Of a DNA stretch of 64,000 bases, positions 17,540 through 62,247 are shown in pieces. The first letter of the stretch is position 1; every line of letters starts with the position of its first letter. The notes under the pieces were generated by a model, which did not search any database, was not told where the DNA came from, and saw only the letters and a list, made by a program, of their open reading frames with translations. The translations under genes were made by a program, and so were the position numbers. The stretch spans positions 1-64,000 of the forward strand of contig NZ_BCRQ01000001.1 in the NCBI RefSeq assembly GCF_001552675.1, written 5' to 3'. The stretch comes from Alicyclobacillus sendaiensis NBRC 100866 (GTDB taxonomy: Bacteria; Bacillota; Bacilli; Alicyclobacillales; Alicyclobacillaceae).

Positions 17540-17667
17540 ATCGAGCGTTGGTCTCTGAAGGCGATGAGGCGGAAGGTTGCCCATGTGTCCAGCGCCATAT
17601 GGGATACCGCTGGGGGAATTTCCGCGGAGTATGTCCAACAAATTGGGCGACAAAGGAGGGAAAACAT

Positions 17668-29231: not shown

Positions 29232-29450
29232 ATGGCAAAGGACGATGTGATTGAAGTCGAAGGCACGGTGATTGAACCACTGCCGAACGCGATGTTCCGC
29301 GTCGAGCTCGAGAACGGGCACAAAGTCTTGGCGCATGTGTCAGGGAAGATCAGGATGCACTACATCAAGATCCTGCCGGGCGATCGCGTCACGGTCGAAC
29401 TGTCACCGTACGATCTGAGCCGTGGCAGGATTACGTACCGCTACAAGTAA
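29232..29450 (+). CDS. infA: translation initiation factor IF-1
   Basis: IF-1, 72 residues, an OB-fold protein that blocks the A site during initiation. It has [22 protein letters not shown] and [21 protein letters not shown]. The ATG at 29232 follows AAGGGGGGAC. Confidence 0.96.
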
Positions 29451-29475
29451 TGGAGTGCTAGCATTCGCGGAGTCG

Positions 29476-29494
29476 TTGCGGTATGATACCGCAA
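29476..29494 (+). promoter_or_regulatory. small perfect hairpin upstream of rpmJ
   Basis: TTGCGGTA (29476-29483) pairs perfectly with TACCGCAA (29487-29494) across a three-base loop. It ends just before the rpmJ Shine-Dalgarno. No T-run follows, so it is not a terminator. Confidence 0.4.
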
Positions 29495-29511
29495 GTGGAG
29501 GAGGGGTAAGT

Positions 29512-29625
29512 GTGAAAGTCCGTCCTTCCGTCAAGCCCATGTGCGAGAAGTGCAAAGTAATTCGCCGCAAGGGCAACGTGATGGTAATCTGCGAGAATCC
29601 GAAACACAAGCAGCGCCAAGGCTGA
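29512..29625 (+). CDS. rpmJ: 50S ribosomal protein L36 (zinc form)
   Basis: L36, 37 residues, the smallest ribosomal protein. Ligands are Cys11, Cys14, Cys27 and His32 (CEKC and CENPKH), the zinc-binding version. GTG 29512 follows GGAGGAGGGG. Confidence 0.95.
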
Positions 29626-29660
29626 CCAGGCATGCGCCACGGCGGGAAACTTGGGGCTTC

Positions 29661-29749
29661 CACGAAGACAGCGCGGCTGGTCCTTCCACGCGGCCTGCGG
29701 CCGCAACGCACATGCGTCCGCGGGTGAGCGTGAAGGGACTGTCTTCGTG
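29661..29749 (+). ncRNA. candidate rpsM leader RNA (long hairpin)
   Basis: The 230-base gap between rpmJ and rpsM contains a long imperfect hairpin. The outer stem pairs CACGAAGACA (29661-29670) with TGTCTTCGTG (29740-29749) perfectly. A 9-base bulge follows, then an inner stem pairs 29680-29691 with 29728-29739. The apex (29692-29727) can form a further ACGCA/TGCGT stem. I do not recognise the family; its position suggests a leader for rpsM-rpsK-rpsD-rpoA-rplQ. Confidence 0.5.
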
Positions 29750-29855
29750 TTTGCATACAAATCACTGAGCAGTCGCTGGACTCGGCAGCGCGCGCGAGGC
29801 GCGGTTCTGTACAAGCCCAGCGCGGACGAAGCACATTTGGAGGTGCAGTCTGTAC

Positions 29856-30224
29856 ATGGCACGTATTGCCGGCGTCGACTTGCCGCGCGATAAGCGCGTC
29901 GAGATCGGACTGACGTACATCTACGGCATCGGCCGCACGACGTCCAACAAGATCCTCGCGGCTACGGGCATTGATCCGAACAAGCGCGTCCGGGATCTGA
30001 CGGAGGATGAGGTCGTTCGCCTGCGCGAAGAAATTGAGCGCAATTACAAGGTCGAGGGAGATCTCCGCCGCGAAGTGGCGATGAACATCAAGCGGCTCAT
30101 CGATATCGGCTGCTACCGAGGCATCAGGCATCGCCGCGGGCTCCCGGTTCGTGGGCAGCGCACGAAGACCAACGCGCGCACGCGGAAGGGTCCGCGCCGC
30201 ACGGTCGCAGGTAAGAAGAAGTAA
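29856..30224 (+). CDS. rpsM: 30S ribosomal protein S13
   Basis: S13, 122 residues, in the head bridging to the 50S. It begins [22 protein letters not shown], has [31 protein letters not shown] in place, and ends in a basic tail. The ATG follows TTGGAGGTGC. Confidence 0.96.
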
Positions 30225-30242: not shown

Positions 30243-30659
30243 TTGGCTAACAAGGTCACCAAGCGCCGTGGCTCGTCGACGAGTGCTCGCCCGCGCCGCC
30301 GAGATCGGAAGAACATCGAGGTGGGCGTGGCCCACATCAAGTCGACGTTCAACAATACCATCGTGAGCATCACGGACCCGGCGGGCAACGTCATCTCATG
30401 GGCTTCCGCCGGCACGGTGGGGTTCAAGGGCTCGCGCAAGAGCACGCCGTACGCTGCGCAGCTCGCGGCTGAGGCTGCCGCGCGTGCTGCGATGGAGCAC
30501 GGGATGAAGTCGGTTGAGGTACTGGTCAAGGGCCCGGGTGCTGGCCGCGAGGCTGCCATTCGCTCGCTTCAGGCCGCAGGGCTCGAGATCACGGGGATCC
30601 GCGACGTCACGCCCATCCCGCACAACGGATGCCGTCCGCCGAAGCGCCGCCGCGTGTAA
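30243..30659 (+). CDS. rpsK: 30S ribosomal protein S11
   Basis: S11, 138 residues, on the platform near the Shine-Dalgarno helix. It has [17 protein letters not shown] and ends [16 protein letters not shown] 30243 is preferred; the GTG at 30234 sits inside the GGAGGTG ribosome binding site. Confidence 0.95.
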
Positions 30660-30721: not shown

Positions 30722-31348
30722 ATGGCAAGGTATACAGGGCCCGTGTGCCGTCTGTGCCGCCGTGAAGGCATCAAGCTCTACCTGAAGGGTGAGCGGTGCT
30801 TCAGCGAGAAATGCGCTGTCGACAAGCGGCCGTACGCGCCGGGACAACATGGACAAGGTCGGAAGCGCACCACCGAGTACGGGATGCAGCTGCGGGAAAA
30901 GCAAAAGGCGCGCCGCTACTACGGGGTGCTTGAGAACCAGTTTGAGCGTTACTACGAGGAGGCCGCTCGCCGTCGCGGGGTGACGGGTGAGACGCTGCTC
31001 CAGCTGCTCGAGAGCCGCCTGGACAACGTCGTGTACCGGCTGGGCTTTGCGGCGTCCCGCGCGGAGGCTCGCCAATTGGTCCGCCATGGGCATATCCAGG
31101 TGAACGGCCGGCGCGTGGACATCCCGTCGTTTTTGGTGAAGGAAGGCGACGTGGTGTCCGTCCGGGAGAAGAGCCGCGACAACGCCCGCCTGAAGGAACT
31201 CGCCGAATTGATTCCGAGCCGCACCATTCCGGCCTGGCTGGAACTCGACGCCGAGAATTGGACGGCGAAGGTGCTGCGCCGCCCTGCGCGCGACGAGATC
31301 GACGCCCCGGTGCAGGAGCAGCAGATCGTCGAGTTCTATTCACGTTAA
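30722..31348 (+). CDS. rpsD: 30S ribosomal protein S4 (zinc form)
   Basis: S4, 208 residues, a primary 16S-binding protein. Four N-terminal Cys (9, 12, 26, 31) form the zinc site; the S4 RNA-binding domain at about 96-160 has [14 protein letters not shown]. Its place between rpsK and rpoA is the general bacterial alpha-operon arrangement; in B. subtilis rpsD lies elsewhere as a single gene. Confidence 0.96.
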
Positions 31349-31419: not shown

Positions 31420-32358
31420 ATGATCGAGATAGAGAAGCCGCGGATCGAGATTGTGGAACAAACCGGCGACTACGGGAAGTTCGTGTGCGAACCGCTGGAG
31501 CGCGGCTACGGGACGACGCTCGGCAACTCACTGCGCCGCATCCTGCTGTCTTCCATCCCGGGGGCAGCGGTGCGGTCGGTGAAGATCGAGGGCGTGCTGC
31601 ACGAGTTCTCCACGATTCCTGGGGTCGTCGAGGATGTCACCGAGATCATTCTCAATCTCAAACGGCTCTCGTTGAAAATTCATTCCGACGAAGAGAAGAC
31701 GCTGATCATCGACGCCGTGGGCCCGGGAGTGGTGACGGCTGGCGACATCCGCGCGGATTCGGACGTCGACATCATGAATCCTGACCTGCACATCGCGACG
31801 CTGACGGAGGGCGCGCGCATCTACATGGAGATGCGCGCCGGCCGGGGGCGCGGATACGTGCCGGCACACCGCAACAAGCCGGAGGAGCAGGAGATAGGGC
31901 TCATTCCCATCGACTCGCTGTACTCGCCCATTTCGCGCGTGAACTTCTCCGTGGAGAACACGCGCGTGGGTCAGATCACGGACTACGACAAACTCACGCT
32001 CGAGGTGTGGACGGACGGAAGCGTGGCGCCGGACGAGGCGGTCTCGATCGGGGCAAAGATTCTGACGGAGCACTTGATGCTGTTTGTCGGTCTGACGGAT
32101 CGGGCGCGGGACACGGACCTCATGGTCGAGAAGGAGAACGCGCACAACGACAAGATCCTCGACATGCCCATTGAGGAATTGGACCTGTCGGTTCGCTCCT
32201 ACAACTGCCTGAAGCGGGCGGGCATCAACACGGTGGCGGAGCTCTGCGCGAAGTCGGAAGAAGAGATGATGAAGGTCCGCAACCTCGGCCGCAAGTCGTT
32301 GGAAGAAGTGGTCGAGAAGTTGCATGCCCTTGGGCTTAGTTTGCGCAAGGACGACTGA
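31420..32358 (+). CDS. rpoA: DNA-directed RNA polymerase subunit alpha
   Basis: The alpha subunit, 312 residues, which dimerises to start RNA polymerase assembly. The N-terminal domain has [17 protein letters not shown] near residue 29. The C-terminal domain (about 240-305) has [17 protein letters not shown] and [11 protein letters not shown] for UP-element and activator contacts. The ATG follows AAGGAGGATTAGG. Confidence 0.97.
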
Positions 32359-32385: not shown

Positions 32386-32751
32386 ATGGCATATCGCAAG
32401 TTGAACCGGACTTCTTCGAGCCGCAAGGCGCTGTTTCGGAGCCTTGTGACGGATCTGTTCCTCTACGAGCGCATTCAGACGACGGAAGCGAAGGCCAAAG
32501 AGTTGCGTGCGATTGCGGAGAAAATGATCACGCTGGCGAAGCGGGGCGACCTGCATTCGCGCCGGCTCGTGGCTCGTTACGTGCGGCGCGAGAAGCTTTC
32601 GCCGCTCGGCGAGGGCCCGGATGCGATTCAGAAGCTGTTCGGGGACATCGCGCTTCGGTACAAGGACCGCAACGGCGGGTACACGCGCATCGTGAAGGTG
32701 GGCCCGCGGCGCGGTGACGCTGCACCGATGGTCGTGATCGAACTCGTGTGA
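32386..32751 (+). CDS. rplQ: 50S ribosomal protein L17
   Basis: L17, 121 residues. It begins [21 protein letters not shown] and ends [13 protein letters not shown]. The ATG follows AAAGGAGGGAG. Its stop overlaps the truA start; the ECF-transporter genes found here in Bacillus are absent. Confidence 0.95.
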
Positions 32752-43111: not shown

Positions 43112-43212
43112 GCCGGGCCGGCCGAAGGGAGGGATGCCAGGCGAGGAACCGGATGGGCGATTTCACGTAGGATGTCACATGCGGCTGTGAATCTGATACG
43201 CAGCGCATGTCA

Positions 43213-43352
43213 AGCGCCTGGACTCGGCTGTCGCCGAGTTGACGCGGAGGAGGTCGGCGAAAGATTCGGCGGATGCCTCCCGGCGCCAATCCGATCGCGC
43301 CGCAAGCGAAGCCTGAAATCCACCGGGCGACCGGTGGGACAGAGGTGAGCAG
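43213..43352 (+). ncRNA. glmS ribozyme
   Basis: The leader of glmS contains the ribozyme core. A|GCGCCTGGACT holds the cleavage site between A43213 and G43214, followed by the P1 arms ACTCGG/CCGAGT, GTTGACG, and TTCGGCGGATGCC. P3 pairs CGGCGC with GCGCCG, and P4 pairs CCACCGG with CCGGTGG across a GCGA loop. Binding of glucosamine-6-phosphate triggers self-cleavage and lowers glmS expression. The 3' limit is approximate. Confidence 0.93.
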
Positions 43353-43378
43353 ATCGGATGAAGGAGGATACCTGCTTC

Positions 43379-60129: not shown

Positions 60130-60146
60130 AGGCGTGTGATCCAAAA

Positions 60147-60220
60147 GGCCTCGTATAATGCCGGGAATATGGCTCGGCAGTCTCTACCAAGCGACCGAGA
60201 ATCGCTTGCGCTACGGGGCC
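60147..60220 (+). ncRNA. purine riboswitch, guanine type
   Basis: P1 pairs GGCCTCGTA (60147-60155) with TACGGGGCC (60212-60220), including one G-U. The junction reads TATAATGCCGGGAATATGG and TCTCTACC, then P3 AAGCGA/TCGCTT. The discriminator before the 3' P1 arm is C60211, which in this family pairs with guanine or hypoxanthine, not adenine. Confidence 0.93.
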
Positions 60221-60320
60221 GTTGTCATAGAGCGGTGCCGCGATTGGGCGTTCCCGCGAGCTTGGGACCATGGCTCGTGTGCGAGCGCATCGTGCCCGAT
60301 CTCTCCGTCAACGGCCTCAT

Positions 60321-61982: not shown

Positions 61983-61998
61983 GGAACTGTCAGCTGCA

Positions 61999-62091
61999 CA
62001 CACGGGAGCTCGGTGTCACCGGGCTGAGAGGGCGGCTATGGAGCTGCCGACCGTTGAACCTGATCTGGGTAATGCCAGCGTAGGGATTGCG
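61999..62091 (+). ncRNA. TPP riboswitch (thi box)
   Basis: The aptamer shows GGGCTGAGAG (pyrimidine-sensing T-loop) and TTGAACCTGATCTGGGTAAT plus CCAGCGTAGGGA (pyrophosphate-sensing arm), the diagnostic thi-box elements. It is followed 180 bases later by thiC. Confidence 0.95.
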
Positions 62092-62247
62092 ATGAAGTGC
62101 AGAATCTCCGTCGAGCGCTGATCCGCGGCAGGCGGCGCGTTCCTTTGGGTGTGGCCCATGAAGCGTGGCCATGCTGTGCCAGCCGACGGTATGGCGCTTT
62201 GCCCCTGCGAACTCCCCAAAGGTCAGGGCCGTCGGGCGCCCATCCGC

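Follow-up and report, generated by a model that had tools for sequence, protein, structure and literature searches.

Between rpmJ and rpsM of Alicyclobacillus sendaiensis NBRC 100866, inside the S10-spc-alpha gene series, lies an 89-nt hairpin followed by rpsM, rpsK, rpsD, rpoA and rplQ, in that order. Is this hairpin a leader RNA and, if so, which of the proteins encoded downstream would be its ligand? The locus was analyzed within a 64,000-nt stretch of the genome (the window, positions 1–64,000) and compared with the corresponding loci of relatives and of other Bacilli and Clostridia.

Structure of the hairpin

The outer stem P1 is perfect, as a sequence-only reading of the window had described it, and has 11 bp rather than the 10 bp counted there. 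Its 5′ arm is followed by an 8-nt bulge that ends in the heptamer GCGGCUG and by the inner stem P2, in which UCCUUC-CACGC pairs with GCGUGAAGGGA, leaving one bulged C (Table 1). The same reading had the structure fill the rpmJ–rpsM gap, of which (230 nt) it covers only ∼40%. Folded alone, the hairpin reaches −52.1 kcal/mol compared to −35.85 ± 3.25 kcal/mol for shuffled sequences (z −5.0, none of 200 as good), and with its flanks (29640–29780) it gives a z of −2.45 with 2 of 200 shuffles as good. The hairpin noticed from the letters alone is thus a real and, as seen below, conserved structured RNA. In the free fold, a small AGC/GCU hairpin closes part of the bulge. The bases that would form it are not conserved in the Clostridia copies described below, and we therefore read GCGGCUG as unpaired. 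The region of the possible further hairpin P3 does not fold better than chance (z +0.53 for a 121-nt stretch).

Table 1. Features of the rpmJ–rplQ region of the window, with the parts of the hairpin and its putative target genes.
Feature	Position	Strand	Basis or remark
rpmJ (L36)	29512..29625	+	GTG start; gene 5′ of the leader; anchor for gap reading
P1 outer stem, 5′ arm CACGAAGACAG	29661..29671	+	Sequence, fold, covariation; pairs with 29739..29749
5′ bulge CGCGGCUG, 8 nt	29672..29679	+	Heptamer GCGGCUG at 29673–29679
P2 inner stem and variable G+C-rich apex, 59 nt	29680..29738	+	Fold and relatives
P1 outer stem, 3′ arm CUGUCUUCGUG	29739..29749	+	Sequence, fold, covariation
Conserved single-stranded tail UUUGCAUACAAAU	29750..29762	+	Family pattern: U-rich, then AUANA
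Possible extra hairpin P3 (CGCUGG / CCAGCG)	29774..29822	+	Sequence and fold; within the clade's spacer-lengthening insertion
Shine-Dalgarno GGAGGUG of rpsM	29839..29845	+	Sequence, spacing
rpsM (S13)	29856..30224	+	First gene of the proposed regulated group
rpsK (S11)	30243..30659	+	Second gene after the leader
rpsD (S4, zinc-motif type)	30722..31348	+	Gene of the proposed ligand
rpoA (RNA polymerase alpha)	31420..32358	+	Fourth gene after the leader
rplQ (L17)	32386..32751	+	Reading frame; name recognized from sequence alone

Other RNAs were also seen in the window. An S10-Clostridia leader (RF03136, 39.3 bits) is found at 17556–17653, 5′ of the S10 gene, so the gene series carries at least two ribosomal protein leaders. 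A glmS ribozyme (43202–43360), a purine riboswitch (60131–60233) and a TPP riboswitch (61992–62103) all score over their Rfam cut-offs.

Conservation and covariation within the family

In the family to which the window belongs, rpsM was located in 39 of the 41 genomes sampled. One of these loci ends before rpmJ, which leaves 38 readable gaps. All 38 gaps (110–247 nt) contain the element, and rpsD is inside the operon at every one of these loci. The layout begins with a P1 of 10–11 bp and a 5′ bulge whose last bases are GCGGCUG; P2, which varies, comes next, and the sequence AUANA lies 3′ of P1. The heptamer is invariant (38/38), and AUANA lies within 20 nt of P1 in each gap compared to 239 of 1900 random windows (12.6%). 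P2 with its apex ranges from 9 to about 65 nt in the relatives, and P2 itself from only 2–3 bp in minimal members such as L027 to a long arm. A hairpin descriptor is incomplete and recovers 24 of the 38 members at P1 ≥ 6 and 33 at P1 ≥ 5. One family member (L044) has two GCGGCTG copies 50 nt apart in the same rpmJ–rpsM gap, as if duplicated.

A covariance model, R1, was built from ten family members. It matches all 38 gaps, ten of which are the seed itself; 31 of the 41 family genomes hold exactly one match and none holds two. Of the 446 cells in the R1 alignment 97.5% are paired, both sides have changed in 10 of the 13 pairs, and none of 500 shuffles reaches any of five covariation measures; sliding one side by 1–3 columns leaves a pairing of only 35–48%. 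Since this alignment is fitted to its model, the P1 arms were also compared free of any alignment. A 5′ arm joined to its own 3′ arm gives a mean of −15.0 kcal/mol compared to −8.0 kcal/mol with the arms of other genera. With each of 14 genera represented by a single member, 2000 shuffles gave nothing as good, a result that includes one wrongly set 3′ arm (L041), which counts against it. The structured leader suggested from the sequence alone, for which stems and covariation in relatives had been proposed as the check, is therefore borne out by compensatory changes and by the stems in every readable gap.

Distribution outside the family

The sister family f2, which belongs to the same order, also has rpsD after rpsK wherever the contig reaches that far (14/16), and none of its 16 gaps read (24–82 nt) contains the element. 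Outside the family, gaps were read at 77 of 80 named loci (the other three are cut too near rpsM) and, in a phylum sample, at 86 more. In most of the alpha operons sampled the gap is short and lacks the element; where S4 is in the operon, it was found in 14 of 62 named loci and 5 of 77 phylum-sample loci. Judging from f2 and these operons, an operon can contain S4 and do without the element.

Many Clostridia have the same bulged hairpin layout 5′ of rpsM. Among 54 non-family gaps (at least 60 nt, rpmJ adjacent) GCGGCTG is the commonest shared 7-mer (24/54), followed by the Shine-Dalgarno sequence GGAGGTG (23/54), while the 105 arrangements of its letters, GCGGCTG included, are found in a mean of 1.2 gaps. 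A hairpin with P1 ≥ 6 and P2 ≥ 4 surrounds the heptamer in 17 of the 24 gaps. For comparison, such a hairpin is found 13 times in 102 around other arrangements of the letters, 106 times in 1080 at random positions and 162 times in 1200 when the flanks are shuffled. With filters off, R1 gives weak matches (8.7–18.6 bits) just 5′ of rpsM in 6 of 16 such loci (L176, L182, L161, L164, L163, and L186). The AUANA tail is weaker beyond the family (8/20 compared to 139 of 1000 random windows), and at least one A stands between P2 and the 3′ arm of P1 in 12 of the 20 non-family descriptor members, as counted manually from the list.

Outside the family, searches of whole class and phylum genomes with R1 gave only chance sites, and ten class-level loci had no neighboring ribosomal protein match. 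These runs used strict filters that missed even the window's own copy, so absence from them means little, and the Clostridia copies were revealed only by reading gaps. One weak match (23.2 bits, L079 at about 1500–1560) lies directly 5′ of a gene that we take from its protein start to be rplM, and could be the known L13 leader. Two Clostridiales-1 RNAs were seen near each other (L135, 1714–1864 and 2603–2739), 3′ of rpsM on a Butyrivibrio contig.

Distance to rpsM and mode of action

In 23 of the 38 family members P1 ends 37–46 nt 5′ of the rpsM start codon, and the Shine-Dalgarno sequence begins 20–30 nt after P1. The remaining 15 have longer spacers of 58–106 nt. The window (105 nt) is among them: in its clade an insertion has lengthened the distance between P1 and the start codon to about 105 nt, a point against the reading proposed below. 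Neither a terminator on the + strand nor a sigma-70 promoter match was found in window positions 29400–29900. The nearness of the hairpin to the Shine-Dalgarno sequence together with these two results favors a predicted repression of translation.

S4 might instead act on transcription, by attenuation or antitermination. The E. coli protein has antitermination activity according to a review (PMC10931766), and in Clostridia the hairpin lies 32–257 nt 5′ of rpsM, a spacing too variable for simple occlusion, so that another mode is possible there. We regard a transcriptional mode as unlikely, as the window has no terminator-like + strand site in the region searched, few U residues follow P1 in the family, and the spacing to the Shine-Dalgarno sequence is tight in the 23 members above.

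The hairpin before free-standing rpsD and the likely ligand

The element was found at rpsM in none of 13 loci where rpsD is absent from the operon, and we therefore examined the regions upstream of free-standing rpsD genes in Bacilli. In one order, which we take from its Paenibacillus S13 loci to be Paenibacillales, GCGGCTG is present in 55 of 57 rpsD leaders: 7 of 7 in a first set and 48 of 50 in a second, the latter fetched from 79 matched genomes. It is the most shared 7-mer in the 57 upstream regions, where other permutations of its letters average 0.59. In the 50-leader set the heptamer lies 84–153 nt 5′ of rpsD, with a second copy at 282 nt in L340. It forms the loop of a hairpin, mostly as C-N-GCGGCUG-AAC, and the stem sequence differs widely among members. 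The arms of 50 distinct pairs bind their own partner at −14.8 kcal/mol compared to −9.7 kcal/mol otherwise, which none of 1000 permutations equalled. P2 is missing in these leaders, so the part shared with the window is only P1 and the heptamer loop. In the 20 of 50 loci scanned, no Rfam family matched this hairpin; the only rows obtained were a single chance one and partial T-boxes at the ends of loci. The sequence CACCCTC is common to 39 of the 57 upstream regions (L317–L366 plus seven earlier loci), so the Paenibacillales leader seems to hold a second conserved part.

The recurrence of the heptamer hairpin before free-standing rpsD is the strongest new point of this analysis. The only ribosomal protein gene seen in common between the two settings is rpsD, and for this reason S4 is the likely ligand. 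S4 and S13 had both been put forward as effectors in the sequence-only reading, and the comparison retains the first. S13, or else S11, L17 or alpha, would be the natural choice if the next gene decided the matter, with the element directly 5′ of rpsM in both the family and Clostridia. Such a ligand is nonetheless improbable: the same hairpin precedes rpsD alone in nearly all of the Paenibacillales leaders, the Paenibacillus rpsM gaps read are only 19–21 nt long and empty, and S4 is already the established repressor of both the E. coli alpha operon and B. subtilis rpsD (PMC10931766).

A second S4 element was looked for in the rpsK–rpsD gap and none was seen (heptamer in 3 of 194, not enriched). 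Second, divergent rpsD copies are found off the alpha operon in two family members, L115 and G019, 57% and 49% identical to the S4 of the window; GCGGCTG is absent upstream of the copy in L115.

It had also been supposed that rpsD joined this operon. The S4 of the window has the zinc motif (N-terminal cysteines), as do 37 of 37 S4 proteins in the family, 14 of 14 in the sister family and 103 of 131 at other alpha-operon loci, compared to 0 of 50 free-standing Bacilli S4. As this is the type usual in alpha operons, the gene most likely stayed in place, contrary to that supposition.

The Paenibacillales leaders also bear on a role in processing or stability, in which RNase III or a similar enzyme would cut the hairpin and so divide the long transcript into its spc and alpha sections. 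A long hairpin between rpmJ and rpsM within the gene series would suit such a role. It would not need a sequence-invariant bulge heptamer, and the minimal members with their very short P2 and the recurrence before rpsD in a different genome setting also speak against it, which makes it very improbable. That the repeat acts as DNA, for instance as a promoter element, is hardly credible: AUAGAU in the tail resembles part of a −10 box, but there is no sigma-70 match and the base changes preserve pairing including G-U pairs, whose retention is meaningful in RNA only.

A proposed S4 leader

The element is probably an autoregulatory S4 leader on a new scaffold that lowers the translation of rpsM. 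Once there is more S4 than the available 16S rRNA can take up, the unbound protein would attach to the bulged hairpin, recognizing the unpaired GCGGCUG at the P1/P2 junction and perhaps also the AUANA tail. The bound protein would hold the hairpin in place shortly 5′ of the rpsM Shine-Dalgarno sequence and reduce the access of 30S subunits, and translation of S13, S11, and S4, possibly also of alpha and L17, would fall.

One description fits the three lineages: P1, 0–3 free bases, GCGGCUG, an optional P2, usually A or AA, and the 3′ arm of P1. We infer that P2 is an optional insertion into an S4 loop. We would give even chances to the broader idea of a single portable S4 module, P1-N-GCGGCUG-[optional P2]-A(A)-P1′, that predates the split of Clostridia and Bacilli and has traveled with the S4 gene. 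It would stand before rpsM where rpsD stayed (this family and many Clostridia) and before the lone rpsD in Paenibacillales, be read by both zinc-motif and zinc-free S4, and occur in tandem with an RF03140-like leader in some Clostridia. If one seven-base site is indeed used on several scaffolds and in several settings, this would be a clear example of an RNA control site tracking a moving gene. For one family of Bacilli the analysis provides a concrete, testable RNA whose link to the S4 gene comes from an independent comparison and not from gene order alone, and for two lineages the element would supply what Rfam 15 lacks.

Comparison with known leaders

Two features typical of ribosomal protein leaders were found, namely a covarying RNA structure and a position before ribosomal protein genes that include the gene of the proposed ligand. 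Rfam 15 gave no match in the hairpin at gathering thresholds or at E ≤ 10, with two unrelated weak rows outside it. The earlier remark that no Firmicute leader was known at this site holds as far as Rfam matches go. It is incomplete for the site as such, since a leader of another structure, S4-Clostridia, has been predicted 5′ of rpsM in Clostridia (Eckert and Weinberg, 2020, PMC7247131). Its accession is RF03140 (PMC7779021); RF03142 is not this leader but L2-Alphaproteobacteria.

The element resembles S4-Clostridia in its site before rpsM-rpsK-rpsD-rpoA-rplQ and in the proposed ligand S4. The RF03140 consensus consists of GAAAG, a hairpin and CUGGGU..ACCCCAAUUAG, without the GCGGCUG bulge. 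The RF03140 model gave no match in window positions 29450–29900 (E ≤ 10), in 18 of the 38 family loci (E ≤ 1), in 11 Clostridia loci (E ≤ 10) or, under strict filters, in the window's own genome. The GAAAG that begins the RF03140 consensus is found anywhere in the gap in only 4 of the 38 family members. Of 299 phylum genomes, one has an RF03140 match that passes the cut-off, and the gap there (L256) is without GCGGCTG. When RF03140-like elements were labeled by a regular expression, not by the covariance model, 53 long gaps divided into 5 with both elements, 19 with the heptamer only, 4 with the RF03140-like element only and 25 with neither. The five composite leaders, in which the GCGGCUG hairpin stands beside an RF03140-like element 5′ of rpsM, are L131, L149, L168, L184, and L190. 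The hairpin could have another role in these five Clostridia loci, because it adjoins an element already assigned to S4.

The leader of B. subtilis rpsD is known from experiments (Grundy and Henkin, 1991, 1992, cited in PMC10931766). Like the element proposed here it is an S4 leader in Bacilli, with GCUG in a loop. Read from an alignment, 11 of 13 sampled rpsD leaders of this GUAAC type from other Bacilli have GCUG in the loop after GUAAC. One member (L300) reads GUAACC-GCGGCUGCAAA-GG, and its loop is GCGGCUG. The pattern GUAAC..GCUG..GG.GA, which recovers 8 of the 13 leaders and is not exhaustive, was found in none of the 38 family gaps and none of the 57 Paenibacillales rpsD leaders.

The nearest matches of the heptamer in E. 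coli 16S rRNA, with one mismatch each, lie at nt 39, which we take to be in the five-way junction region, and at nt 1523. Chance alone would give about two matches of this quality, and they make no convincing case for rRNA mimicry. The literature on S4, rpsM and ribosomal protein leaders yielded no description of the element, with an earlier mention of a Paenibacillus rpsD hairpin possible, and no bacterial leader was among the matches listed for GCGGCUG.

The E. coli alpha operon leader (Alpha_RBS, RF00140) is a pseudoknot at the start of rpsM. With the Alpha_RBS model the window scores 10.8 bits compared to a cut-off of 38, mostly from the rpsM start codons, and the best of 18 relatives scores 25.4 bits, also below the gathering threshold of 38. 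In E. coli the alpha operon is repressed by S4 through a site at rpsM, and that leader would be a functional analog. The element is neither RF03140, nor Alpha_RBS, nor a B. subtilis-type leader, and it works like them if S4 binds.
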